64,000 nt of DNA from Pirellulimonas nuda (GTDB taxonomy: Bacteria; Planctomycetota; Planctomycetia; Pirellulales; Lacipirellulaceae). Made by a program: the position numbers and the translations under genes. The notes beneath the pieces are model-generated. The model was not told where the DNA came from. It saw only the letters and a program-made list of their open reading frames with translations, and did no database searches. This document shows positions 6,101 to 52,640 of the stretch, in pieces (position 1 is the stretch's first letter; the number at the start of each line of letters is the position of its first letter). The DNA lies in contig NZ_CP036291.1 of NCBI RefSeq assembly GCF_007750855.1, positions 3,348,001 through 3,412,000 on the forward strand, written 5' to 3'.

Positions 6101-7120
6101 TCCGCGGGCAACGGCGTCCGCCGGCTCCGCGAGGGAGTGGACAGCGCGGCCCAGAGTGTGTTGGGCGACGAGACCGAGGCGCTCCGCCGCGCCGAGCGTG
6201 AGCTGGAAGACCTCGACTCGCAGCTAAACCGCGAGATCCGGCGGGCCCAGGGCGGAGGCGACCCGACGGACCCTCAAGGCGAACGGCAGCCAGGCGAAGA
6301 ACAAGGCGAAGAACAAGGCGAAGAACAAGGCGAAGAACAAGGCGAAGAACAAGGCGAAGAACAAGGCGAAGAACAAGGCGAAGAACAAGGCGAAGAACAA
6401 GGCGAGCAACACGGACAAAGCGGCCGTGAGCAAGAACCGGGTCAACCGGGAGAAGGAGAACAAGCCTCCGAGCCGCCTCGCCAGGATAGCGAGGGCCAAC
6501 CCGGGGGGCAGCAGCCGGGCGGCAGGCGACAAGACCCCAACGGCCAACCGCCGCGAGGCGAGCCATCCGGCGGTCAACCAACCCAACAAGACCCCCAGCA
6601 AGCGGGGCAAGGCGCCGCTGGTGGCGGCGGCCCACAACAACATCAGCAACCGCAAGAGGGCTCAGACGGCGAGCGCGACGACCAGCGGTCAACGGATCGC
6701 CAGGAGGGCCAGGGCGGCGGCGCCGGGGAACTGCCCAGCGACTTGACGCGTTGGCTGGAGGCTTCGCGCGCCGGCGCCGAGGGCCCCATCACCGGCGACG
6801 CGTTCCGCGCGTGGAACGACCGCATGCGTGATGTGGAGGACCTGCTGGACGATCCGGACCTGCGCGCCCAGGCCGCCCGCATCCGCGACCGCGCCGAGGC
6901 CGCCCGGGCCGACTACAAGCGGTTTTCTAAGGAGCCGGATTGGAACCAACTAATCGAAGCGGTCGCGGAGCCGCTGGCCGAGCTGCGCGAGCGCGTCCGC
7001 CAGGAGAGGCGGCGGAGGGAATCGCCCGATTCGCTGGTTCCCATCGACCGCGACCCGGTTCCGGTCGAGCACGCCGACACCGTGCAGAAGTACTACGAAC
7101 GTCTGGGGAGTGGTGAATGA
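3191..7120 (+). CDS. DUF4175-like large membrane-anchored coiled-coil protein
   Basis: About 1309 residues from the ATG at 3191, chosen over an in-frame GTG at 3173 because AGGAAAA sits 5-7 nt ahead of it. Two membrane helices near residues 22-38 and 50-66 and a third near 140-165 resemble the DUF4175 N-terminus. Beta-rich domains follow to about residue 480, then a long Gln/Glu/Arg-rich coiled coil (about 490-1020) and a very polar region that includes nine perfect G-E-E-Q repeats. The C-terminus is again helical. It overlaps the next gene by 4 nt (ATGA) and follows the VWA gene by about 30 nt, so it belongs to the MoxR-type operon. A scaffold role in the periplasm is inferred, not shown. 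Confidence 0.8.
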   Translation: MIQDLHKMLRAVRSRMQIVRQRWALTLCWLVWAALAGLLWANADEVDFTGRQLALTVAAGALLTAVVCRILVLRSLRDPHRVAQRIEAKHPELGASLLAALEQAPSPQLQTLGYLQSSVVREAVRHGRKHNWNHAVSAAQLGLAQLAQLAALAVLVAACVTLFDRGEAAARLSGPTLGLRAPAQRLDFDVSIQPGDTQIERGTTLLVVAEFGRDAPTEATLMLRATERLADPEADDRVASRPMTQSFDDPKFVARVASVDSDLRYWVVYAGQPTQQYRVTVFEYPRLERADAGLLYPEYTSLAPKAIDNVRHVTAVEGAQLTFRCRLNKEVEHARFVDQDGGEVPLARTGDAAPVVAATLTLDASRRFKLLLTDDQGRQNKSPPEFVVKVLPNRPAKLKIAQPARDVRVSPLEELEVSGEATDDFGLLRSGISYSIGGSEPHDAVLLDHAGPKAGPKAAPDAATKKSLVAHLVDFEALDARPDQLLSYYVWAEDIGPDGEVRQTMSDMYFAEVRHFEEIFRQGDQPTGQQQQEAQERQQQQQPQGASQQAEELAELQKQIIGATWALVRRETAKAPSPSFANDVGVLVESQQQALGQLEELTGELSDQESIEHAAAARQQMQSVLKRLGAVTTSAGADGLRPALSSEQAAYQALLRLRAREFSVVQGGPQQQQQGAQSSSASGQRSRSQQQLNQLELSAEENRYETQSRAQDQRQQAQGGSDQAQQVLDRLRELARRQQDLNERVRQVQSELEAAQDDEERDAVERELKRLREQQQEILRDTDQLQSEMEGSEDAPQTEDAQRRLEQTRDRIQEASEALQQGRVSDAAAEGARAERQLNDLRDEFRRRAADDFSEEMRQLSDAARRLDERQRALTEELSQQQERQDRSLRDGGARQEVVEGLAEQRREYEELIERIQETVREAEEPEPLLARQLYEAVGEASDARVPEALDVAEQLLEIGVVKDAAESMRSAGNGVRRLREGVDSAAQSVLGDETEALRRAERELEDLDSQLNREIRRAQGGGDPTDPQGERQPGEEQGEEQGEEQGEEQGEEQGEEQGEEQGEEQGEEQGEQHGQSGREQEPGQPGEGEQASEPPRQDSEGQPGGQQPGGRRQDPNGQPPRGEPSGGQPTQQDPQQAGQGAAGGGGPQQHQQPQEGSDGERDDQRSTDRQEGQGGGAGELPSDLTRWLEASRAGAEGPITGDAFRAWNDRMRDVEDLLDDPDLRAQAARIRDRAEAARADYKRFSKEPDWNQLIEAVAEPLAELRERVRQERRRRESPDSLVPIDRDPVPVEHADTVQKYYERLGSGE
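6293..6400 (+). repeat. 12-bp tandem repeat, 9 copies
   Basis: Nine perfect copies of GGCGAAGAACAA plus a degenerate tenth, inside the DUF4175-like gene, encoding G-E-E-Q repeats. Perfect identity suggests recent slippage; copy number probably varies between strains. Confidence 0.97.
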
Positions 7121-9450
7121 CCGAGTGGGGTCTATGGGGCGCTCCCGAATGGGCTGGTGCGGCGATCGTGTTGTTCGCGATCGGCCTGGCAGCACTGCTG
7201 TGGAGCTATGGGCGGGCGCCCTGGTCGTTGGGATGGCGTGCGGCCTGCGCCGCACTCAAGGCCACGGGGCTGGCCGCTCTGGCGCTCTGCTTGGTTGAAC
7301 CGCTCGCCGGCGGAGTCCGCCCCCGGCCCGGCGCCAACTTGTTTGCCGTGGCGGTTGATAACAGCCAGAGCATGCGGGTCCGCGACCCCGGCGGCGGCAA
7401 GACGCGGGGAGAAGAACTCCAGCAGATGCTGCTCGCCGAGTCGCGTTGGCAGACGCGGCTGGGGCGCCAGTTCGACGTGCGGCGGTTTGCGATCGACCAC
7501 CGTCTGCACGACGCCAAGGACTTCACGGGGCTCGATTTCGCGGGAGAGGCGACCGGCCTCGTTTCAGGGCTGGGCGAACTCGAGCGGCGTTTTCGCGGGC
7601 TGCCGGTCGGCGGCGTGTTGCTCTTCACGGACGGCAACTCGACCGACGCGTTCAGCGAGTCACTCGATTGGTCCGGGGTCCCGCCCGTTTACCCCGTTGC
7701 GGTGGGCGCCCACGACGTGCTGCCGGACGTCTGCGTCGAGAGCATCTCCGTGCGGCAAACCAACTTCGAAACCGCGCCCGTCACGGTGCACGCGGACATC
7801 CGCTCCACGGGCGCCGGTGAGCGAGACGTCCAGGTGAGGCTGCTCGATGAGCAGTCCAGCACGATCGATACGAAAACGGTCCACGTTCGGGCCGGGTCGG
7901 AGGTCGCCACGGCGCGCTTCCAGGTCCGCCCCGAGCACGCGGGGGTGAACGTGTTCTACGTGACCGCCGCCGGCGGCGCCGACGAAGCGGTCGAGGCGAA
8001 CAACACGCGGGGCGTGGTCGTCGACAACGGCAAAGGTCCCTTCCGGGTGCTCTACGTCTCGGGACGACCCAACTGGGACTTCAAGTTCCTGCGACGGGCC
8101 CTCGCCGACGACGACCAGTTGGAGCTGGTTGGCTTGATCCGCATCGCGAACCGGGAGCCGAAGTTCACGTTCCGCCGCCGCGGCGAGGGCTCGGGGAATC
8201 AGCTCTTCGACGGGTTTAACCGCGACGACGAGGACACGGCCGAACGCTACGACGAGCCGGTGCTCACGCGGATCGGCACGCGCGACGAGCAAGAGCTCCG
8301 GGACGGCTTTCCGAAGTCGGCAGACGAGTTGTACGCGTACGACGCGATCGTGCTGGACGACGTGGAGGCCGAGTTCTTTTCACCCGACCAACTGGCGATG
8401 ATCGAGGGGTTCGTGAGCCGTCGTGGCGGTGGGTTGCTGATGGCCGGCGGCGGCGGGTCCTTTGCGGAGGGGGGGTACCGCCTGACCCCCGTTGGCGGCT
8501 TGCTGCCGGTCTACCTGGAGCGTGACGCCGCGGACCGCCGGGCCGCGGGCGGCTCGGGGTTCCGCTTGGTGCTGACCCGCGAAGGCTGGCTGCAGGACTG
8601 GGTGCGGCTACGCAAGACCCAGGACGAAGAACAAGCGAGGCTGGGGGGCATGCCGGCTTTCCAGACATCGAACGCCGTTGGAAACCTCAAGCCGGGCGCC
8701 GTGGAGCTCGCCCGGGTGGCCGACGCCAGCGGCGCTGCGCACCCGGCGCTGGTCGCGCAGCGGTTTGGGCGCGGCCGCTCGGCGGCGCTCTTGGTCGCCG
8801 ACGTCTGGCGGTGGGGGCTGCGTCGCGCCGAGGTTGACAACGACGACCTCGAAAAGTCTTGGCGGCAGACGATCCGCTGGCTGGTGGCCGATGTCCCGCG
8901 ACCGGTGGAGGTCGAGGTGGACGCGGCGCCCGACGGCCAAACCTCGGCCCACGCGCAGCTCATCAAGGTTCGCGTCCACGACGCGGAGTACCTGCCGCTC
9001 GAGAACGCAACGTTGCAGGTCACGGTGCGTACGCCCGATGGCAGGCAGGTGAAGCTGTCGGCCGAGGCGGACGACGAAGAGGCGGGCCTGTACGTGGCCC
9101 AGCACCACTCACGCACCCCGGGACCGCACCGCGTGAGCGTCGAGGCCGCCGGGCCCGACGGCTCGCCCCTGGGCGGGTGCGAGGGGGGCTGGGTGGCCGA
9201 ACCCCTCGCCGATGAGTTCCGCCGGTTGCGGGTGAACCGCCCGCTGCTAGAAGACATCGCGGCAAGAACCGGTGGCCAGGTCGTGGAGCTGGACGAGCTG
9301 GACGGGTTTGTCGCGGGCCTGGAGCAACGCAAGATGCCCGTGACCGAAACGTGGATCAACCCGCTCTGGCACCATCCGGCGTTCTTCACCTTCGCCATCG
9401 CGTGCCTCATCGGTGAGTGGGGACTCAGGCGTTGGAAGGGGCTGGCGTAA
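7117..9450 (+). CDS. VWA / glutamine-amidotransferase-like membrane protein
   Basis: 777 residues. Two hydrophobic helices near the N-terminus (about 8-25 and 38-58) precede a VWA-like segment starting A-V-D-N-S-Q-S-M (MIDAS-like D-x-S-x-S), then Ig-like beta domains and a class I amidotransferase-like Rossmann region around residues 310-500. A final hydrophobic segment lies about residues 752-768. This arrangement is typical of the last large membrane gene of planctomycete MoxR/Bat operons. The start overlaps the upstream stop by 4 nt. The amidotransferase-like domain in such proteins often lacks the catalytic triad and I did not find a convincing nucleophile Cys, so it is probably structural. 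Confidence 0.82.
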   Translation: MTEWGLWGAPEWAGAAIVLFAIGLAALLWSYGRAPWSLGWRAACAALKATGLAALALCLVEPLAGGVRPRPGANLFAVAVDNSQSMRVRDPGGGKTRGEELQQMLLAESRWQTRLGRQFDVRRFAIDHRLHDAKDFTGLDFAGEATGLVSGLGELERRFRGLPVGGVLLFTDGNSTDAFSESLDWSGVPPVYPVAVGAHDVLPDVCVESISVRQTNFETAPVTVHADIRSTGAGERDVQVRLLDEQSSTIDTKTVHVRAGSEVATARFQVRPEHAGVNVFYVTAAGGADEAVEANNTRGVVVDNGKGPFRVLYVSGRPNWDFKFLRRALADDDQLELVGLIRIANREPKFTFRRRGEGSGNQLFDGFNRDDEDTAERYDEPVLTRIGTRDEQELRDGFPKSADELYAYDAIVLDDVEAEFFSPDQLAMIEGFVSRRGGGLLMAGGGGSFAEGGYRLTPVGGLLPVYLERDAADRRAAGGSGFRLVLTREGWLQDWVRLRKTQDEEQARLGGMPAFQTSNAVGNLKPGAVELARVADASGAAHPALVAQRFGRGRSAALLVADVWRWGLRRAEVDNDDLEKSWRQTIRWLVADVPRPVEVEVDAAPDGQTSAHAQLIKVRVHDAEYLPLENATLQVTVRTPDGRQVKLSAEADDEEAGLYVAQHHSRTPGPHRVSVEAAGPDGSPLGGCEGGWVAEPLADEFRRLRVNRPLLEDIAARTGGQVVELDELDGFVAGLEQRKMPVTETWINPLWHHPAFFTFAIACLIGEWGLRRWKGLA

Positions 9451-9451
9451 C

Positions 9452-10546
9452 ATGGGATCGACGGCTCGGCGGATCGTGTTGGCTAGCATCAGTGCGTTCT
9501 TGCATGCGCAGGCGTACGGCGACGGCGCCGTGCTCCCCAAGCAAGAGATCCTCGTCGTCATCGGCGCCGCAGGCCAGCCCGAGTACGGCCGAATGTTCGG
9601 GCAGTGGGCCGACGCGTGGCGCTCCGCGGCGGACGCCGCGCAGGCCAACCTGCAGGTGATCGGCGAAGCGGCCGACGGCGCCGCCGATCGCGAGCAGATC
9701 GCCGCCGCGCTGCGGCGGCAGGCGGACGCCCGGCCCGATTTGTTCTGGCTTGTGCTCATCGGGCACGGCACCTACGCCGGCGATTCGGCGAAATTCAACC
9801 TGCGCGGCGCCGACGTTACCGCCGAACAACTCGCCGGGTGGCTCGCCCCTATCGGGTCGCCGACGGTGGTCGTCAACTGCGCATCGGCGAGTGGGCCGTT
9901 CCTCCATGAGCTGTCGGCCGATGGCCGCATCGTGATTACCGCGACCAAGAGCGGTTACGAACTCAATTTCGCCCGGTTCGGACAGTACTTCTCGGGGGCG
10001 CTGACCGATCCGCAGGCCGATCTCGACAAGGACGACCAGGTCTCGCTTCTAGAGGCGTACCTCACGGCGTGCCGCCGCCTGGAAGAGTTCTACGCCGAGG
10101 ACGCCCGTCTGGCCACCGAACACGCGCTGCTCGATGACAACGGCGACGGGCTGGGGACTCCGGCGGCCTGGTTCCGTGGCTTAAGGGCGACGCAGCGCGC
10201 CAAAGAAGGCGGCCAGTTGGACGGCGTCCGCGCCCATCAGGTGCACCTGGTCGCCAGCGATCGCGAGGCCCGCATGCCGCTCGAGCTCCGCAAACGCCGC
10301 GACGGGCTGGAACTGGAACTCGAAGCACTCCGCGAGCAGAAGCCAAGCCTCAAGGAGGAAGACTACTATCGTCAACTCGACGCGCTGATGCTTGAGCTGG
10401 CGCGGGTCTACCAATCCGCAAACAGCGCCGAGAACGCACACTCAGAGAACGCACAGCCGGAGAACGCACAGCCGGAGAACAACCAGCCGGAGAACAACCA
10501 GCCAGAGAACAACCAGATCGACGCGTCCGCGAGATCGGGTGATTGA
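9452..10546 (+). CDS. clan CD (caspase/C13-like) peptidase-like exported protein
   Basis: About 364 residues. I place the start at ATG 9452, two bases after the previous stop, because it begins a signal-peptide-like segment; an upstream in-frame start at 9413 would overlap the previous gene. The fold hints at a clan CD cysteine peptidase: I-G-H-G at about residues 103-106 and V-V-V-N-C-A-S-A near 139-146, giving the His-Gly and Cys dyad (about H105 and C143). A D-L-D-K-D-D-Q-V segment looks like an EF-hand or dockerin-type calcium loop. The C-terminus is a 15-bp tandem repeat encoding E-N-x-Q-P. It is the last gene of the MoxR-type operon. Proteolytic activity is inferred from motif spacing only. 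Confidence 0.68.
   Translation: MGSTARRIVLASISAFLHAQAYGDGAVLPKQEILVVIGAAGQPEYGRMFGQWADAWRSAADAAQANLQVIGEAADGAADREQIAAALRRQADARPDLFWLVLIGHGTYAGDSAKFNLRGADVTAEQLAGWLAPIGSPTVVVNCASASGPFLHELSADGRIVITATKSGYELNFARFGQYFSGALTDPQADLDKDDQVSLLEAYLTACRRLEEFYAEDARLATEHALLDDNGDGLGTPAAWFRGLRATQRAKEGGQLDGVRAHQVHLVASDREARMPLELRKRRDGLELELEALREQKPSLKEEDYYRQLDALMLELARVYQSANSAENAHSENAQPENAQPENNQPENNQPENNQIDASARSGD
10430..10516 (+). repeat. 15-bp tandem repeat at the 3' end of the peptidase-like gene
   Basis: About 5.8 copies of GAGAACxxxCAGCCx, encoding E-N-(A/N)-Q-P at the extreme C-terminus. One of several unrelated 15-bp minisatellites in this window. Confidence 0.95.
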
Positions 10547-10646
10547 GCGGGGATTTCTTCTGCCTCGCCTGCTGGGGAGTCGTCCCGCCGAATCCGCCTG
10601 CGGCGGATACAGGGGTGTGTCGCTTCGGGCTCTTATCGCGCATCGT

Positions 10647-10682
10647 GAGTCTCCTGCGGCCCTCATCGGCCAGTGGAGACTC
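10647..10682. other. imperfect hairpin after the MoxR-type operon
   Basis: GAGTCTCC and GGAGACTC arms flank an inner GGCC/GGCC pairing. There is no T-run afterwards, so it is at best a weak or Rho-type terminator candidate. Confidence 0.35.
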
Positions 10683-10800
10683 TCATAACACTTGGATCAG
10701 GAATTGGGGAGCAGGCCAGGCCAGGCCGAGAAAGGCTCGCGGCCAACCGCCGTTCGCCAGGCCGGGCACGAGTGACTTTGGGTGATCGACGCCGTATGCC

Positions 10801-11060
10801 CCCAGCGTTTACTGGTACTCGGCGGGGCACGCCGCAGGGCGCTGCGGCCCTCAGCCGAACGCGCCAATCATCAACTCGTTCTTGGAGCTGTTCGCCCAGA
10901 CCATCCCTGATATGGCGCACGCCGTGATGATCTGGGACGGCGCGGCCGAAACTAGACCCATGGGCACACCAGCGGGCGCCGCAGAACGTGACACTGGTGA
11001 AGCCGCCACCCTACTGCCCCGAGCTCAACCCAATCGCGTTTCGGCGCCGTGCGCAACAAC
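10801..11060 (+). pseudogene. IS630-type transposase remnant
   Basis: Reading from 10801 gives Y-W-Y-S-A, then N-S-F-L-E-L-F-A-Q and H-A-V-M-I-W-D-G-A. A frame change is followed by N-V-T-L-V-K-P-P-P-Y-C-P-E-L-N-P-I. These are the second-Asp strand (M-I-W-D-G-A) and the P-Y-S-P-E-L-N-P-I-E block of IS630/Tc1-type DDE transposases. The N-terminal third is absent, the frame is broken between the blocks and the final Glu of the DDE triad is lost (I-A in place of I-E). It is a dead fragment filling the space between the peptidase-like gene and the permease. No terminal inverted repeats were found. Confidence 0.8.
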
Positions 11061-11263
11061 CCTGCGGATGGCGGGGCCAACGACGACATCTCCGTGCCTG
11101 GAATCGAAGCCTTCGACAGACCCCCTCCGGGCCAAGTGTGAGGCGGCCGCAGGTGGCGCCAGCGCCTGCCCCAGTCCGGCGGATCAATGTAAGGTGACCG
11201 GCAATGAGCGGGCGGCGGGACGCACCTGCTCAGAACCCGCCGAGATTATCGGAGAAAATTGCG

Positions 11264-44781: not shown

Positions 44782-44810
44782 TTGGGACGCGGGCCCGGAC
44801 CGGCTATACT
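44782..44810 (+). promoter_or_regulatory. promoter candidate for the crRNA-like RNA
   Basis: TTGGGA (44782-44787), a 17-bp spacer, and TATACT (44805-44810) make a good sigma-70-type promoter, rare in this GC-rich context. Start would be near 44817. Nothing protein-like lies downstream before the convergent cas9 gene, which argues for an RNA product. Confidence 0.6.
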
Positions 44811-44816
44811 TGGCCT

Positions 44817-44880
44817 TGATGTTGTGGCTCGCCGCTGCGGATTGGTTGCGGGTCAGGTTCGGTTACACGGCTCGGCTCTC
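44817..44880 (+). ncRNA. crRNA-like RNA: about 27-30 nt guide-like part plus repeat-like part
   Basis: The RNA would open with about 27-30 nt (to 44844) and continue into GTTGCGGG at 44845. Bases 44848-44868 pair antiparallel with 48349-48369 of the tracr-like RNA: 18 Watson-Crick pairs, 2 G-U pairs and one U-U mismatch at 44858. Type II-C crRNAs have just this order, spacer then a repeat beginning GTTG whose 5' part pairs with the tracrRNA anti-repeat. Only one well-supported unit is visible. Weak hints of decayed neighbours are GTTGGGA at 44781 (64 bp before) and GCGGGTC at 44913 (65 bp after). A hairpin GCGTCTGC/GCAGACGC at 44891-44914 may end or shape the transcript. The 3' end is unknown. 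Confidence 0.55.
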
Positions 44881-44994
44881 TCGATCCCAGGCGTCTGCTT
44901 CTTGCGGCAGACGCGGGTCGAGGGGCCCGGCCGCTGAGCTCCGGGCCGCTGAGCATCGGGCCGGACGCTCGTTCTGGGCGTCCCCGTTGGTGCA

Positions 44995-45054
44995 ACGCAG
45001 GCAGACCCAACGCGCGCTGACCCAACACCGGCAGACCCAACGCCGGCAGGGCGG
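44995..45054 (+). repeat. 15-bp degenerate tandem repeat, 4 copies
   Basis: Units of the form ACGCxGGCAGACCCA between the crRNA-like unit and the cas9 stop codon. Not a CRISPR array: unit length is only 15 and there are no spacers. Confidence 0.8.
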
Positions 45055-45072: not shown

Positions 45073-48000
45073 CTAGTCGTTCGCCCGGCGGATGCGGCCC
45101 AGGGGGTCCACCGTCACCTTCTTGGCGACCAGCGTGCTGGCCCTGGCCGTGTAATTGGTCTGGTCGTTGCTGCGTCGCGCGTCGTTCGCCAGCGCGAAGT
45201 AGATCTGCCCGTGGACCGTCGTCGCCGTCTTAAAAACCAGCAGCAGCTGCGTCCCCTTCCAGTCGGCCAGCACCGCCTCACGCGACGCCAACGACATCAC
45301 GAACCGGGCGTCGGGCCGTGATGGGTGTTCGCGCTGGATCATCCTCTCGCCCCGCCTGAGACGCGTGATCGCCTCCAGCAGGCTCACGACCAGCACCTCG
45401 CGTTTGGGCTTCCCGTCCTGGTCGAACTCGAAGAGGCAGAGGTGGTGGACCGAGCCGGGCCGCACGAACGCCTGGCCGGGGGACGCGGGGTCACGCAGCG
45501 GCCGGACCGACGCGTCGGGCCGCAGCAGCCGCACCCGCTTGATCGGGACGCCCGAGGGCATCCGCAGCCCGCCGAGCGCCTGCCGCATGCGTCGGACGTC
45601 CTGCTTCTTGCCCCGCCCCGACTCCAGCCCCGCCTTGCGCAGCGCCTCCTGCACGATCCGGCGGATCCCGGGGTCGCGGATGAGCGCGACCTCGTTGGCC
45701 GTGAGGTCCTCCACCGGCTTGCGCCTCACCCACTCCGCCGGGTTGGGGGTCGGGCCGTACTGGGTTTCTTCGTGCAACGCCCCGCGGGCCTTCCGCTCGA
45801 CGCGGTGCGAGACGTGCATCGTCCGCAGCCGCTGGGCGACCTGCTCGCGCATCCCCTCCCAGGGGGGCGCGAGCGTGCCCCCCTGCCCGACGCTCGCGGC
45901 CAGCCGACGCAGCCTGGCGCGGCTCGTCAGCGCGATCACCAGCGCGTCGATCGCCTGCGAACGGTGGTCGGCGCGGTCGTTGTCCCGGTCGCTCTGGCCC
46001 CCGTCGCTCTGGCCCCCGTTGTCGAGGCCCCCGTTGTTGAGGCCCCCGTCGCTGAGCCCCGCAGCGTTGGGCCACCCGGGGCTGTCGGGCAGCTCGCGCA
46101 GGACGCTCTCCAGGCCCCAACGCCGCCGCAGCTCGGGGATGAACTTCCGCTGGTAGCCGAGCACCGCGCCCTCTTTCTGGTAGAGGAGCCGCAGGTACGC
46201 GACGGTCGCGCGGGTGGTGTGCCACGTGTCGTAGAGCTGCCGTACGAGGTGCCTTTCGAGCTCCAAACCCTCCCGCACGATCCGCCGCTGCTTGGCGTAC
46301 GGGAGGACGCCGCGACGCATCAGCAGGCCGGCCCGCTCGCACAGGCCGGCGTACGCCTCGGGCCGGGCCGCGGCGAGCCACTCGTGCGGGGTCTGCTCGG
46401 CTTTGGTCTGGACGCACGCGCGGTGGCACACGAGCTGGTTCGAGCGGGAGTCGTCCAGCGTGCGCGTCAGCGGCAGGATGGGGTTGACCACCACCCCCTC
46501 CCCCAGGAGCTGCTCGGAGCCGATGGGCTCGCCGCAGTACAGGCACCCCCCCGCCTGCTCCCGCCACAGCAGGTAGCGGCGGACCGCTTCGGGGCCCGCC
46601 GGGGCGCCCAGCGCGCCGATCGCCTGGGCGGCGGCCTTGTGCTGGGCGAGGGCTTCGCGGCCGCGGCGGGCCAGCTCGCCCCGCTTCTGCTTGCCGAGCT
46701 TCACCGAACGGGCCAACGCCAGACGCACGACTTCGGGTTTGCCGTGCTCGCGGAGGATGGCGTTGACGAGCTTGCGGAGCTCGACGAGGACCCGCCGGAG
46801 CACGGGGCTGGCGGGGTCGCCGCCCACCGGGTCGGCCGGAGGGGTCCGCTCCAGCGGGGGGAGCGCGTCGAGCGCGGGGCGTCCGGACGCCCCGCCCTTC
46901 AGGTAGCCCGCGGCGTGCAACGCGCTGTGCTCGGGCTCGGACGGCGACTGGTACGGCAGCCCGCGCTGCAGGTGGGGCAGGAGGTTGTCGATCGCCTGGC
47001 GGGAGAGCGGACCGTGCCCCGACGGCAGCTCGACGGCCGCCGCCTTGGCGGCCTGCTCGGGGGTCATGCCGAAGCCGCTGACCAGCCGGCCGACGAGGGC
47101 CTCGTCCTCCAGGTCGTCGTCCAGCAGCAGCCGCACGATGGCGTCCTTCTCGTCCTCGGGCCGCCGGCGCCAGCCGGCGCCGGTCGCCTTGGCGAGCGCG
47201 GCCTCGGTGCTCCGCCCGGCGAGCGACGCACGCTTGCCACGCTCGAGGTTGAAGCGGGCCGACGCCGGCAGTCCCAGGTGCTTGCGGGCCTCGTCGAACG
47301 TCACCCGCGGCTTGCGGGAGAGCAGGCCCAGCAGGCCCGTGCGTTGCGGCTGGTCCAGGGCGAACTCTTCGCCCGATGCGGGGACCGTGTAGCGCAGGCT
47401 GTTGAGCTCGCACAGCACCCGCAGCAATTCGGCTTGCCGGTCGGCCCGCGGGCAGCGGCGGCGTTTGGGCTCCAGCGCGCACCGGCCGACGGCCGACCTG
47501 GGCCAGTAGTACTTGCGTTGGAAGAAGATCAGCCCGTGCACGCCGAACGCCTCGAGGTCGCCCAGCCCGGCGCGGTCGGGGTGGCGCCTGGGGACCGGCC
47601 GACGCGGCCGCCGCTGGCCCCCCAACGCCCCGACCCGCAGGGCCTCCGTGAGCAGGCCCGGGTGGTGGGGCGCCTGGGCCCGCCAGACCGCCTCGAACTC
47701 CGCCTCGAGCTGCTCCCGCGAGAAACGCCGCTTGCGGACGTGGTCCCCCGCCTCGCGGCGGCGGGGGTCCTGCACGGCCCGCTTGGCGGCGAGCATCGCC
47801 CCCACGGTGGCGTGGCCCCCCGCCTCCCGCTCGAGTTCGTTCTGGCGGATCTCGGCGAGCAGCCCCTTCACCTCGGCGTCGCCGCGTTCCCTCCGGCGGT
47901 TGGAGCAGAAGCCGCGACGCTGGTTCAGGTGCAGCAGCACCCGGCCGACCTCGAACGGTTCGAGCGGCTCCCGCAGGGCCCTGGCCCGCAGCAGGTAGGG

Positions 48001-48306
48001 GTCCTTGGCGGTCTCGGCCGCCTGCCGCTCGGGGTCCCCGGGCCACAGGCCGCAGCCGACCAGCGCCCGGCGGAGCCGGCGGGCCCGCTGCGCCCGCCGC
48101 CGGCCGGTCCGGCGGAGCAGGCGGGCGGCGCGGCGGGCCTCGGCCAGCGATTTTTCATTGAAGGTGTCGAAGGCGTACAGGCCCGCGGGGAAGACCCGCA
48201 CCCCCATGTCGATCAGGCCGCGGGGGGCGGACGCGTCGCGGTCGTCGTCGACCAGCGCCCAGCCGATCGAGCGGGGTCCGATGGCGAGGCCGAGGGTTCG
48301 GGGCAT
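45073..48306 (-). CDS. cas9: Cas9 (type II-C-like), predicted nuclease-dead in both RuvC and HNH
   Basis: 1077 residues, a normal II-C length, no stop or frameshift. Domain order: RuvC-I (L-G-L-A-I-G-P-R-S-I-G-W-A-L-V-D), Arg-rich bridge helix (about 55-82), recognition lobe, RuvC-II (V-V-R-L-A-L-A-R), HNH (588-643), RuvC-III (S-Q-A-I-D-A-L-V-I-A-L) and a PAM-interacting-type C-terminus. Catalytic positions: RuvC-I Asp is A8; RuvC-II Glu is A530; RuvC-III His is Q784, only its Asp (D787) remains. In HNH the D-H pair is N608-P609 and the catalytic Asn is V632. The family scaffold around them (G-W-A-L-V-D, C-L-Y-C-G, L-D-D-S-x-S-N, C-H-R, T-P-H-E-W) is intact. A Gly/Asn/Asp linker (about 750-778) is encoded by 15-bp repeats just before RuvC-III. 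RNA-guided binding without cutting is inferred. No cas1/cas2 nearby. Confidence 0.93.
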   Translation of the reverse strand: MPRTLGLAIGPRSIGWALVDDDRDASAPRGLIDMGVRVFPAGLYAFDTFNEKSLAEARRAARLLRRTGRRRAQRARRLRRALVGCGLWPGDPERQAAETAKDPYLLRARALREPLEPFEVGRVLLHLNQRRGFCSNRRRERGDAEVKGLLAEIRQNELEREAGGHATVGAMLAAKRAVQDPRRREAGDHVRKRRFSREQLEAEFEAVWRAQAPHHPGLLTEALRVGALGGQRRPRRPVPRRHPDRAGLGDLEAFGVHGLIFFQRKYYWPRSAVGRCALEPKRRRCPRADRQAELLRVLCELNSLRYTVPASGEEFALDQPQRTGLLGLLSRKPRVTFDEARKHLGLPASARFNLERGKRASLAGRSTEAALAKATGAGWRRRPEDEKDAIVRLLLDDDLEDEALVGRLVSGFGMTPEQAAKAAAVELPSGHGPLSRQAIDNLLPHLQRGLPYQSPSEPEHSALHAAGYLKGGASGRPALDALPPLERTPPADPVGGDPASPVLRRVLVELRKLVNAILREHGKPEVVRLALARSVKLGKQKRGELARRGREALAQHKAAAQAIGALGAPAGPEAVRRYLLWREQAGGCLYCGEPIGSEQLLGEGVVVNPILPLTRTLDDSRSNQLVCHRACVQTKAEQTPHEWLAAARPEAYAGLCERAGLLMRRGVLPYAKQRRIVREGLELERHLVRQLYDTWHTTRATVAYLRLLYQKEGAVLGYQRKFIPELRRRWGLESVLRELPDSPGWPNAAGLSDGGLNNGGLDNGGQSDGGQSDRDNDRADHRSQAIDALVIALTSRARLRRLAASVGQGGTLAPPWEGMREQVAQRLRTMHVSHRVERKARGALHEETQYGPTPNPAEWVRRKPVEDLTANEVALIRDPGIRRIVQEALRKAGLESGRGKKQDVRRMRQALGGLRMPSGVPIKRVRLLRPDASVRPLRDPASPGQAFVRPGSVHHLCLFEFDQDGKPKREVLVVSLLEAITRLRRGERMIQREHPSRPDARFVMSLASREAVLADWKGTQLLLVFKTATTVHGQIYFALANDARRSNDQTNYTARASTLVAKKVTVDPLGRIRRAND
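45968..46043 (-). repeat. 15-bp repeats inside cas9 encoding a flexible linker
   Basis: About five units on the plus strand of type GTCGCTCTGGCCCCC / GTTGTCGAGGCCCCC, encoding (L/Q)-(S/N/D)-(D/N)-G-G. They lie between the HNH region and RuvC-III, where extra length is structurally tolerated. Confidence 0.9.
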
Positions 48307-48315
48307 GGCTTCGTG

Positions 48316-48343
48316 TTGACAAGGGGATCGCCGGAGTCACAAT
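48316..48343 (+). promoter_or_regulatory. promoter of the tracrRNA-like gene
   Basis: A perfect TTGACA (48316-48321), 16-bp spacer and CACAAT (48338-48343). The -35 box starts only 10 bp beyond the cas9 start codon, so this promoter lies inside the cas9 leader and points away from cas9. Predicted start is 48349-48351. Confidence 0.75.
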
Positions 48344-48347
48344 CACG

Positions 48348-48353
48348 AGTGTA
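48348..48353 (-). promoter_or_regulatory. cas9 -10 box candidate overlapping the tracr-like promoter
   Basis: TACACT on the minus strand, preceded by GG (GGTTACACT). The -35 region (48371-48376, AAAAGG) is poor, so basal cas9 transcription should be weak. The predicted cas9 start (about 48341) falls inside the -10 of the opposing promoter, so the two cannot be occupied together. Confidence 0.45.
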
Positions 48354-48457
48354 ACCGATCCTGGCCTGCCCCTTTTCGTAGCAAGACGAAGAATTCGCAG
48401 GCACTGCCCCGCGGGGCAACCGGCCGCCTTGGCTCCGCCAGGGCGGCCTTTTTTTTT
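48350..48457 (+). ncRNA. tracrRNA-like RNA divergent from cas9
   Basis: About 105 nt between a strong promoter and a strong terminator, adjacent to and divergent from cas9. The 5' end (48349-48369) is an anti-repeat for 44848-44868. Three stem-loops follow: TTTTCGT/ACGAAGA with loop AGCAAG (48373-48392, one G-U); a TGCCCCGCGGGGCA nexus-like hairpin (48405-48418); and the terminator stem. An alternative fold pairs GCCTGC (48364-48369) with GCAGGC (48397-48402). With the first hairpin on top, this resembles a natural single-guide layout with a 5' guide of about 13 nt; it excludes part of the anti-repeat pairing. Layout matches II-C tracrRNAs (anti-repeat, nexus, hairpins, poly-U). No sequence search was possible. 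Confidence 0.72.
48422..48457 (+). terminator. Rho-independent terminator of the tracr-like RNA
   Basis: GGCCGCC and GGCGGCC arms, extended inward by T-G wobble and TGGC/GCCA around a TCC loop, followed by nine Ts (48449-48457). Lack of a T-run on the other side makes it directional for the plus strand. Confidence 0.92.
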
Positions 48458-48585: not shown

Positions 48586-48894
48586 CTAGCCGGCGTTGCC
48601 GGCGCCCAGCGGGCCGCCGGACATCGCGGGGCCGAGGTTGGCGAGGCAGACCAGCGGCCGCTCCCCGCGCTGGTTCGCGTCGCGGATCGCGGCGGCCAGG
48701 TTCGCTAGCCCCGCGGCCCACGCGTGGCGGTCGAGCTGCATCGCGGCCTCCTGGGTGATCGCGTAGCTGCCGCAGTCGGGGCAGCGGCAGTGGCACACGT
48801 CGGGGTCCGAGTCGTGGGCCGCCTGCTCACCCAGCTCGAGGTCACAGAGCGTGCAGCGGTTGGTGACAAACCGAGCAAGGAACATCGCCAGCAT
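48586..48894 (-). CDS. small zinc-ribbon protein of unknown function
   Basis: About 102 residues from ATG 48894, with GGAG about 9 nt upstream; an upstream in-frame ATG at 48960 would add 22 poorly conserved-looking residues. Two Cys pairs, C-T-L-C near residue 14 and C-H-C-R-C-P-D-C near 34, look like a zinc ribbon. The rest is helical (A-M-Q-L-D-R-H-A-W-A-A-G-L-A-N-L-A-A-A-I). It lies about 280 bp upstream of cas9 on the same strand, with the tracr-like gene between them. No family recognised. A link with the Cas9 locus is only positional. Confidence 0.55.
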   Translation of the reverse strand: MLAMFLARFVTNRCTLCDLELGEQAAHDSDPDVCHCRCPDCGSYAITQEAAMQLDRHAWAAGLANLAAAIRDANQRGERPLVCLANLGPAMSGGPLGAGNAG

Positions 48895-48960
48895 ACGGGG
48901 GGCTCCGGTCGTAGAAGAGGCGGGGCGCGCCACGACGCGGCGCCCGTGACTGGATTTCAA

Positions 48961-50309: not shown

Positions 50310-50728
50310 CAGCACGCCCCGACGAACCCCTGATGGCTAAGAGAAGGCCCCCACGGGAGGACGCGCCTCCCCTCCCCTGCGGGCCGCTGCGGACGCAGCG
50401 GCCCGCAGAGTGTCGGGCGCCCCCCTGAGCACGACCGCCGCAGCCGGACCCGATCGGGCGGCCGCGACCAAAACCCCGGGGGCCGGGCCGCACGGTGGTT
50501 GCTCCGCGCGGGCGGGGGCCGTCTGGGCAGCCGCAGCCAGGCCACCAACCTCCTCAGGGCGCCACGAGGCCGCGGTCGGCGCCGCCGAGAAGGCCCGCCA
50601 GCACTCGGCCGGGTCCCGCCGCGGCTGGCTGATCCGGCCCGCCGAGACCCCCAGCCGCCGGGCGGCGTCGCCGGTCGACTCCCCCTCGGCGAGCGCGACG
50701 GCCAGGCGTCGCTTCGCTGCGGGGGCTC
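50310..50728 (-). pseudogene. duplicated 3' part of the sigma-factor gene plus its downstream flank
   Basis: This segment matches 52212-52640 at most positions: first a noncoding block beginning GACGAACCCCTGATGGCTAA, then the last third of the sigma-factor coding sequence on the minus strand, up to the helix-turn-helix. The copy has lost the sigma-2 part and ends exactly where the zeta-like toxin gene stops. It is not a functional sigma factor. Confidence 0.85.
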
Positions 50729-51308
50729 AGCCTCGCACCGGCAGCCAGCGCGGCAGCGGCTCTGCCGCTCGTACTCTCCTGCCCAACTCGTACTGGGCCA
50801 CGAACCGGTAGGGATCGGCGAGGTCGGAGTTGTCGTAGATCAAGACGTGCTGGACCGACTCCATCGCCGCATGCAGGTTCGCCAAGGTCCGCGGGTAGCG
50901 GGCGATGAGCTTGTCGTCAGGCACGTCGTGGCCGCCTTGGGTGACACGCATCGCCACCCGCTCGATCGACTGTTTTGCCGAGGCCAGGCCGACGAACAGC
51001 AAGGCTACCGTGTAGCCGCCAGCCGACGCTTCTTCCCAGAACCGCACCTCCGCGGCGACGGGGTCGGAAAAGACGGTCTCGAACGCGCAGCTCTCGTTCG
51101 CACCGACGAGCTGTCGGCGTATTTCTGCGGCCGCCTCCGCCGCTTGGTAAGCATCCAACGAAAGTTCCAAGGCGAGCCGGTCGGCGTCGACCAGCGGCAA
51201 TCCGGCTGGGGCGACGTGCGCGTGGTAGAAGGTCGTCTTCCCCGCGCCATCGGGACCGGCGATGGCGACCAGCAGCGGACGTTCGTCCAGCCACGGCAGC
51301 ACCGTCAC
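50727..51308 (-). CDS. zeta-toxin-like P-loop kinase (toxin of a TA pair)
   Basis: 193 residues. A-I-A-G-P-D-G-A-G-K-T-T-F-Y at residues 14-27 is a Walker A of the zeta-toxin type (A-G-x-x-G-A-G-K-T-T). V-D-A-D-R-L-A and C-A-F-E-T-V-F-S-D match the substrate-side Asp and the (F/V)-E-T-x-x-S block of the family. Zeta-type enzymes phosphorylate UDP-sugars or similar nucleotides; the substrate of chromosomal relatives is often unknown. The start overlaps the stop of the ParD-like gene by 4 nt, so the two are co-translated as antitoxin then toxin. Confidence 0.82.
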   Translation of the reverse strand: MTVLPWLDERPLLVAIAGPDGAGKTTFYHAHVAPAGLPLVDADRLALELSLDAYQAAEAAAEIRRQLVGANESCAFETVFSDPVAAEVRFWEEASAGGYTVALLFVGLASAKQSIERVAMRVTQGGHDVPDDKLIARYPRTLANLHAAMESVQHVLIYDNSDLADPYRFVAQYELGRRVRAAEPLPRWLPVRG

Positions 51309-51715
51309 TTCTGGGCCTTCGAACCAGACTTGCGTCTGGCGGGGGGTTTTTCCACCGGCACGAACACGCGGTTCACGAAACGCCCAACCGTGCGGCTGCC
51401 GCCGGCCTCGATCCGAACCACGCAGCCGGGCTGTTTGTCGGCCGCTTCGTAGTGCGGGAACGGCTGCTTCGACAGGTAGTGGGTGACGCGCTGGCGGCCT
51501 TCATCGCAGTGGACCGATTCGATCAGCGCCGAAAGCGGCCGCGCGTCCCCGCTGCGACGCAGGGCGAGCGCGGCGGCGCCGCTCATCAGGGGCTCGACGG
51601 CGCGGCCGAGCCTCGCCCAGAACTCGATTTGACCGGCGATCGAGCGCTGGGCGACCTCCCCGATGACGCGGGCGTCGAGAACGAGGTCGTCCGATAGCTT
51701 GACAGGCTGGCTCAT
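51305..51715 (-). CDS. ParD-like antitoxin
   Basis: 136 residues. V-K-L-S-D-D-L-V-L-D-A-R near the N-terminus followed by R-S-I-A-G-Q-I-E-F-W-A-R-L-G-R-A is the ParD-like ribbon-helix-helix block that usually pairs with zeta-like or RelE-like toxins. The C-terminal part (Q-P-G-C-V-V-R-I-E-A-G-G) should bind the toxin. A near-palindrome directly upstream is a likely autoregulatory operator. Confidence 0.8.
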   Translation of the reverse strand: MSQPVKLSDDLVLDARVIGEVAQRSIAGQIEFWARLGRAVEPLMSGAAALALRRSGDARPLSALIESVHCDEGRQRVTHYLSKQPFPHYEAADKQPGCVVRIEAGGSRTVGRFVNRVFVPVEKPPARRKSGSKAQK

Positions 51716-52211: not shown

Positions 52212-52640
52212 GTCCATCCGACGAACCCCTGATGGCTAAGAGAAGGCGCCCCCGGGCGAACGCGCCTTCCCTCCCCTGCGGGCCGCCCGGACGCAGCGGC
52301 GTCCGCAGCGGCCCGCAGGGATCCGGGCGACGCCCGGATCGCTCCCGCAGCAGCCGGCGGCGATTGGGCGGCCGCGTTACGAACCGGGGGCCGGACCACA
52401 CGGTGGATGCTGCGCGCCGGCGGAGGCCGTCTGGACAGGCCTGCCCAAGCCACCAACCTCCTCAGAACGCCACTAGGCCGCGGCCGGCGTCGCCGAGAAG
52501 GCCCGCCAGCTCTCGGCCAGGTCCCGCCGCAGTTGGCTGACCCGCCCCGCCGAGACGCCTAGCCGCCGGGCGGCGTCGCCGGTCGACTCTCCCTCGGCGA
52601 GCGCGACGGCCAGGCGTCGCTTCGCTGCGGGCAGCCGGCC
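52212..52640. repeat. original copy of the segment duplicated at 50310-50728
   Basis: About 420 bp imperfect direct repeat in the same orientation, 1.9 kb apart, spanning 260 bp of downstream flank and the 3' end of the intact sigma-factor gene. The TA pair lies between the copies. Confidence 0.87.

Follow-up and report, generated by a model that had tools for sequence, protein, structure and literature searches.

Can a Cas9 protein that has lost both of its nuclease centers still be maintained as an RNA-guided protein? The question is raised by a gene in a 64-kb stretch of Pirellulimonas nuda DNA (hereafter the window; positions 3348001–3412000 of a 6.62-Mb single-contig genome). The gene encodes a type II-C-like Cas9, a label that is based on its likeness to Nme1Cas9 and Nme2Cas9 and on protein size, and almost all of its catalytic residues are replaced. 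It is fairly probable that this nuclease-dead Cas9 has been exapted and now binds DNA under the direction of a single dedicated guide RNA, which is probably short. The computed support includes the missing catalytic residues, a predicted Cas9 fold, a conserved trans-activating CRISPR RNA (tracrRNA), a repeat and antirepeat that have co-evolved, and promoter and terminator signals.

Catalytic sites and fold of the Cas9 homolog

The initial annotation had described an open reading frame (ORF) of this position and length with six of the seven catalytic positions replaced, and all of this is confirmed (Table 1). The replaced residues are encoded by GCC (A8), GCG (A530), AAC (N608), CCC (P609), GTC (V632), and CAG (Q784). 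S783 (TCG) is an additional replacement in RuvC-III that had been omitted, and D787 (GAC) is, as claimed, the sole retained catalytic residue. The correspondence of RuvC-I, RuvC-II, and HNH was taken from a phmmer alignment to Nme1Cas9 chains that ends at residue 736, and that of all sites from MAFFT alignments with 10 family relatives, with 33 homologs, with 29, and then with 12 more, all of which agree. In the alignments with homologs, a substitute acid or histidine was not found within the RuvC or HNH motifs. With the catalytic residues gone and no motif acid or histidine to stand in, both nuclease centers are predicted to be inactive, as had been proposed. Residual or alternative catalysis through D787 or other residues is barely conceivable: D787 is kept, but a replacement acid or histidine is missing from both motifs, and changes at these catalytic positions in engineered Cas9s inactivate the domain concerned.

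The Cas9 model TIGR01865 is matched end to end (residues 4–1071, 436.5 bits, cut-off 100), and this is the sole cas9 match in the whole genome. The nearest solved structures are those of Nme1Cas9 and Nme2Cas9. The AlphaFold2 model has a mean predicted local distance difference test score (pLDDT) of 79.1 and a predicted template modeling score of 0.48, which leaves the placement of the domains uncertain. The predicted fold aligns with Nme1Cas9 over 766 residues (Z 28.1, root-mean-square deviation 7.8), and the predicted HNH domain alone aligns with 7mpz at 1.6 Å across 135 residues (Z 20.0). The earlier statement that the scaffold is kept holds for HNH, the C-terminal domain (CTD), and the arginines of the bridge helix, but the bridge helix has lost two of 14 invariant columns. 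Among the features of a Cas9, the fold with RuvC, bridge helix, REC, HNH, and CTD is found in the predicted structure and a cognate tracrRNA and repeat can be read in the DNA, yet the set of RuvC and HNH catalytic residues is not present. By its residues, the protein is a Cas9 homolog yet no active Cas9 nuclease.

The dead state was compared with 51 inspected homologs (33, including the 10 family relatives, then six more, then 12 more). Genomes with a match, the own genome included, numbered 12 of 43 in the family, 43 of 396 in the order (E ≤ 1e-50), and 15 of 397 in the class (E ≤ 1e-120); the relatives inspected were 10 of 11 (with the fragment L012/L031 removed prior to the count), 42 of 42, and 14 of 14, respectively. 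A genome-contig collection added one relative, L056, a metagenome-assembled genome that could be the same organism as another sampled genome. Viral contigs matched no Cas9 relative, and a plasmid search gave 53 records outside the 51, all below 60% identity. All homologs that cover the site in question have the RuvC-I Asp (50 of 50), the RuvC-II Glu (51 of 51), and, in RuvC-III, both the His at 784 and the Asp at 787 (50 of 50). The HNH acid and His are kept in all 51 (the acid being Asp in 30 and Glu in 21), and HNH Asn in 50, the remaining one having a His there in an otherwise intact Cas9 (L025). The highest identity is 52%. The initial annotation had proposed that close homologs be checked for the same substitutions; none of the 51 carries them or is dead.

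The cas9 of L097 contains an internal TAG and that of L056 lies in two ORFs (7920–11162), which leaves RuvC-III uncovered in the former and RuvC-I in the latter. The catalytic residues of cas9 in L097, L056, and L022 are retained where covered.

Predicted guide RNAs at the locus

Candidate tracrRNAs were found in eight of 19 relatives' loci and number nine, as the L024 cas9 locus has two different tracrRNA-like copies (10262–10378 and 10974–11083). The tracrRNA of the window keeps 53 of the 54 columns that are invariant in these nine. Its single deviant column (A34 to G) pairs with a change in the repeat, T2C. The terminator has a 12-pair stem, and for eight of the 25 pairs predicted in the consensus fold, both sides are changed in one sequence or more. 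The TTGACA of its promoter signal can likewise be made out ahead of the tracrRNA in L022, L024, L005, and L025. Rfam families at the gathering threshold and tRNAs were not found in the window.

Downstream of cas9 lies a single CRISPR repeat; a search of the genome with a degenerate repeat pattern, allowing up to three mismatches, found no other. It differs from the repeats of eight relatives at 9–12 positions. With its own antirepeat it forms 30 base pairs at −54.0 kcal/mol, which is within the range of four relatives' own repeat–tracrRNA pairs (−50.3 to −57.4 kcal/mol), whereas with the tracrRNAs of these four it reaches only −29.3 to −36.8 kcal/mol. Random drift from the L024 pair with equal numbers of changes reached −54 in 0 of 2000 runs under each of two nulls. 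The pairing shows that selection has acted on the repeat and antirepeat in this lineage, and it does not fix the timing relative to the loss of the nuclease. Since the tracrRNA is conserved beside a nuclease in which more than a quarter of the invariant columns are lost, selection probably continued after the loss too. The claim that this Cas9 has its own RNAs is borne out at the level of sequence features: the tracrRNA is conserved, and the single repeat has co-evolved with it and is preceded by a promoter signal.

The promoter signal of the presumed CRISPR RNA (crRNA) ends 23 nt before the repeat. Transcription would start about 7 nt further on, giving a guide of about 16 nt. In the relatives, the array unit is 66 nt long (36 nt of repeat and 30 nt of spacer). 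Neisseria repeats end in a −10 box, and if those of the relatives do likewise, their native guide would measure about 23 nt. The repeat ends in TACACG in the window and in TACACT in the eight relatives compared, so that a repeat-internal promoter would be lost. The region 44817–44945, which includes the hairpin 3′ of the repeat, folds with a z of −2.8 (two of 200 shuffles fold equally well).

Table 1. Coordinates of the features at the Cas9 locus, as positions in the window.
Feature	Position	Strand	Remarks
cas9, predicted nuclease-dead	45073..48306	−	1077 amino acids; D8A, E530A, D608N, H609P, N632V, H783S, H784Q; D787 kept
Low-complexity insertion of 20 amino acids	45985..46044	−	residues 755–774, preceding the RuvC-III motif; missing from 13 close relatives
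tracrRNA promoter signal, TTGACA-16-CACAAT	48316..48343	+	1 found; mean 0.0 in shuffles
tracrRNA	48348..48457	+	upstream of, divergent from, and antisense to cas9; aligned with relatives' tracrRNAs
tracrRNA: antirepeat	48348..48382	+	followed by internal hairpins
tracrRNA: intrinsic terminator	48422..48448	+	then nine T
crRNA promoter signal, TTGGGA-17-TATACT	44782..44810	+	sigma-70-like; 1 found; mean 0.0 in shuffles
Presumed guide, about 16 nt	44818..44833	+	predicted transcription start to repeat; from promoter spacing
Single CRISPR repeat, 36 nt	44834..44869	+	crRNA sense; downstream of cas9; pairs with own antirepeat
Strong hairpin just 3′ of repeat	44877..44926	+	without T run; possible crRNA 3′ end or stabilizer

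Decay or constraint

No cas1, cas2, or array was found at the cas9 locus, and the gap between cas9 and the repeat measures only about 200 nt. The genome has no cas1 or cas2 other than those of a type I-C operon, which lie together 1.26 Mb away (at 2.13 Mb). In the relatives L023 and L024, the space between cas9 and the array is occupied by cas1 and cas2. In L022, cas2 takes this place and the match to cas1 is divided between two ORFs (7044–8144); L025 has one partial cas1 match in the two ORFs examined. Of the two marks of a type II-C immune system, cas1/cas2 with cas9 and a repeat–spacer array, the locus has neither, and because these parts are missing it cannot be a complete immune system. 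The type I-C operon (about 2.123–2.133 Mb; L033:2974–12842) encodes Cas3, Cas8c, Cas7, Cas4, and Cas1 with cas2 adjoining, and carries its own 28-repeat array.

The main rival explanation is decay under relaxed selection: immunity was lost with cas1, cas2, and the array, the nuclease became useless or harmful, and the rest of the protein is drifting with no stop yet. Array and adaptation genes are indeed gone from the locus, 53 of 285 invariant columns are changed or gapped in this Cas9, its branch is long (0.84), and broken genes occur in relatives, both in cas9 (L097, L056) and in the split or partial cas1 matches (L022, L025). The initial annotation had argued from the lack of stops. The frame is indeed open, but this is weak proof, as stops are rare in GC-rich DNA; the window has a GC content of 67%, and long open frames overlap cas9 on the same strand (851 amino acids) and on the opposite strand (1009 amino acids). 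When 5–10% of the residues were changed neutrally, 6–33% of simulated genes stayed free of stops, and the open frame as such was rejected as proof against decay. When neutral change was taken to 27% of the residues, none of the 150 simulations at each GC equilibrium (0.65, 0.70, and 0.75) was free of stops, and about 19 frameshifts would be expected at the assumed indel rate.

Neutral drift would moreover strike all domains equally, whereas conservation of the CTD and the tracrRNA is close to that seen in intact systems. Of the columns that do not vary among 12 relatives, 30 of 112 are lost in the nuclease domains and 21 of 162 in the other parts (Fisher p 0.0046). The CTD lost only 5 of 56 (Fisher p 0.0082 against the nuclease domains), and its changes are S/T, K/R, T/S, T/V, and R/K. 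When the same nuclease-excess test was applied to 13 relatives, none gave p < 0.05; L039 came nearest (0.057), and L005 showed the reverse, an excess in the CTD (p 0.003). The relative divergence of the nuclease domains is 1.74 (bootstrap 1.55–1.94) versus 0.87–1.18 in 13 intact relatives, while that of the CTD (1.13, bootstrap 1.03–1.26) falls inside the range of 0.79–1.51 in the 13 relatives. The ratio of the two is 1.54 (bootstrap 1.32–1.78) versus 0.63–1.26. On a tree with four nodes of support 34–65, the branch takes up 13.9% of the tree length for RuvC, 16.9% for HNH, 9.0% for bridge helix plus REC, and 4.9% for the CTD. Constraint is stronger on the CTD than on the nuclease domains.

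The codon composition also speaks against decay. GC at the three codon positions is 0.77/0.51/0.95, and the value of 0.95 at the third position compares with 0.71–0.92 in ten neighboring ORFs and 0.74 in the adjacent intergenic DNA. All indels that are unique with respect to the 13 close relatives are in frame, namely the 20-residue insertion and deletions of one and six residues. L097 presents the opposite pattern, with a stop present and catalytic residues kept where covered. Decay is accordingly judged unlikely, and the gene appears not to be plainly decaying. The insertion, GLNNGGLDNGGQSDGGQSDR, lies inside a 15-nt tandem repeat and has a pLDDT of about 30 for residues 751–770. More 15-nt tandem repeats are found in the DNA at 44929–45049.

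Genes for an acetylesterase, a sulfatase, a DUF642 protein, and a PEP-CTERM protein are among those that flank the locus. A Cys-rich small ORF just upstream of cas9 (48586–48960, minus strand) was considered as a partner and rejected, as no link to cas9 was found. It has no Pfam match and occurs in two of 43 family genomes including the own, where the second occurrence is a weak match that contains a stop. Two stretches of about 400 bp, at 50319–50723 and 52218–52631, are direct duplications (76–93% alike in three blocks, about 1.9 kb apart) and bracket a ParD-like antitoxin (51305–51715) and a zeta-toxin-like protein (50727–51308).

Proposed function and relation to known systems

In the proposed course of events, cas1, cas2, and the array would have disappeared from a type II-C-like CRISPR-Cas locus and both nuclease centers from its Cas9, while the protein stayed constrained as an RNA-guided DNA binder. 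Cas9 would be loaded with its own tracrRNA and a crRNA from the single-repeat gene downstream, which would use its own sigma-70-like promoter and carry the guide of about 16 nt. Both RNAs would be transcribed, the complex would bind DNA without cutting, and binding would block transcription at one or few sites, as a natural CRISPR-interference regulator. Whether the dead Cas9 is such a transcription regulator, the first natural dCas9 (nuclease-dead Cas9) regulator and a type II-C Cas9 exapted from immunity, is evenly balanced. The specific form of this proposal, with dual RNAs, a guide of about 16 nt from a new upstream promoter, and a repeat-embedded promoter switched off by the change from TACACT to TACACG, could equally be right or wrong.

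Within the window, the guide has 17 matches at up to three mismatches (one being the locus itself) versus a shuffle mean of 9.7, and three of 100 shuffles have as many. A scan for seeds of at least 8 nt gave 14 sites including the locus versus a mean of 3.5 for shuffled guides, an excess that probably arises because GGCTCGCC suits this GC-rich DNA. Seed matches were absent from the type I-C locus, a 20-mer search of viral contigs gave 0 matches, and a second exact site for the guide was not found in the genome. The missing target is not decisive, since no protospacer-adjacent motif (PAM) was inferred and guides of 6 nt suffice for one TldR, according to the excerpted text of PMC13418256.

The dead Cas9 might alternatively serve without a crRNA of its own, for example in autoregulation through a long tracrRNA form or in the retention of RNA or DNA from invaders. 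No part of the locus is better conserved than the tracrRNA, a crRNA target did not emerge from the searches, and excerpts of PMC11417352 describe how Streptococcus pyogenes Cas9, together with tracr-L, binds the promoter of its own cas genes and represses it. Such a role is nevertheless improbable, as it would not need the downstream repeat, which is kept, matched by the antirepeat, and preceded by a promoter signal.

Several points weigh against an exapted RNA-guided binder. No convincing guide target was found in the own genome, the window, the type I-C locus, or the viral contigs, and the 25 genome sites at two mismatches to the guide (locus aside) compare with 21 for a reversed control. 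Of the 54 tracrRNA columns, 14 are fixed by the search pattern (eight at the start and six in the T end), which leaves one of 40 changed. The window's antirepeat remains a good partner for the repeats of the relatives (−40.5 to −47.1 kcal/mol), so that the mismatch is one-sided. Within the window's own pair, one mismatch is internal and one is terminal. The starting point of the drift nulls, L024, is not ancestral, and the changes in repeat and antirepeat may predate the loss of the nuclease. In the constraint tests, the domain boundaries were set by the analyst, and REC, too, is faster (1.32 versus 0.89–1.28, just above all 13 relatives) and lost 14 of 92 invariant columns. The dead state is known from one genome and no homolog shares the substitutions, so its maintenance in the lineage is conjectural.

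The dead Cas9 shares its fold and domain order with related planctomycete type II-C-like systems (e.g., L023 and L024) and with Nme1Cas9. Its tracrRNA architecture, repeat sequence, and orientation are also those of the planctomycete relatives. These relatives have the order cas9-cas1-cas2-array and intact sites, whereas in the window both nuclease centers are dead and a single repeat is found without cas1, cas2, or array.

TldRs, as described in excerpts of PMC13418256, have likewise lost their nuclease naturally and apparently kept guide RNA and DNA binding. They descend from TnpB, whereas the window protein is a Cas9 over its full length, with HNH and RuvC dead and a tracrRNA/repeat pair. 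A dead nuclease with a retained guide RNA is seen here only at the sequence level, and as to a guide match at a host promoter, the genome search gave no exact second site and near matches at chance level, with no PAM inferred. The dead Cas9 apparently works like a TldR without being one. Regulation by tracr-L offers a second parallel, in that a native Cas9 likewise acts as a transcription repressor, but that Cas9 stays an active nuclease (excerpts of PMC11417352).

In excerpted text, "native dCas9" is a table entry on CRISPR-interference tools in streptococci (among PMC13418256, PMC11417352, PMC12026748, PMC10278012, and PMC9260158). One large metagenome survey, as excerpted, picked representatives with all catalytic residues and a nearby array (PMC10278012), and surveys of this kind may therefore miss dead Cas9s. 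A natural doubly dead Cas9 is not among the matches listed in one open-access library, which covers few subscription journals and almost no preprints. Within these bounds, a natural nuclease-dead Cas9 with its own RNAs is undescribed, in line with the initial annotation.

Natural dCas12f regulators combine a dead CRISPR effector with its own guide; they use a type V effector, whereas the window locus is type II, with no partner such as a sigma factor in evidence. Dead TnpB and dead Cas12f regulators demonstrate that RNA-guided nucleases can turn into regulators. If the proposed function is true, this route would extend to type II, with two nuclease centers lost and a two-part guide RNA kept. 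Engineered dCas9 is the D10A/H840A variant, and the window protein resembles it in the RuvC-I exchange of Asp for Ala and in the loss of the HNH His, with the difference being that it is natural and has lost more catalytic positions. It would then be an equivalent, arisen by natural evolution, of the CRISPR-interference tool in widest use.

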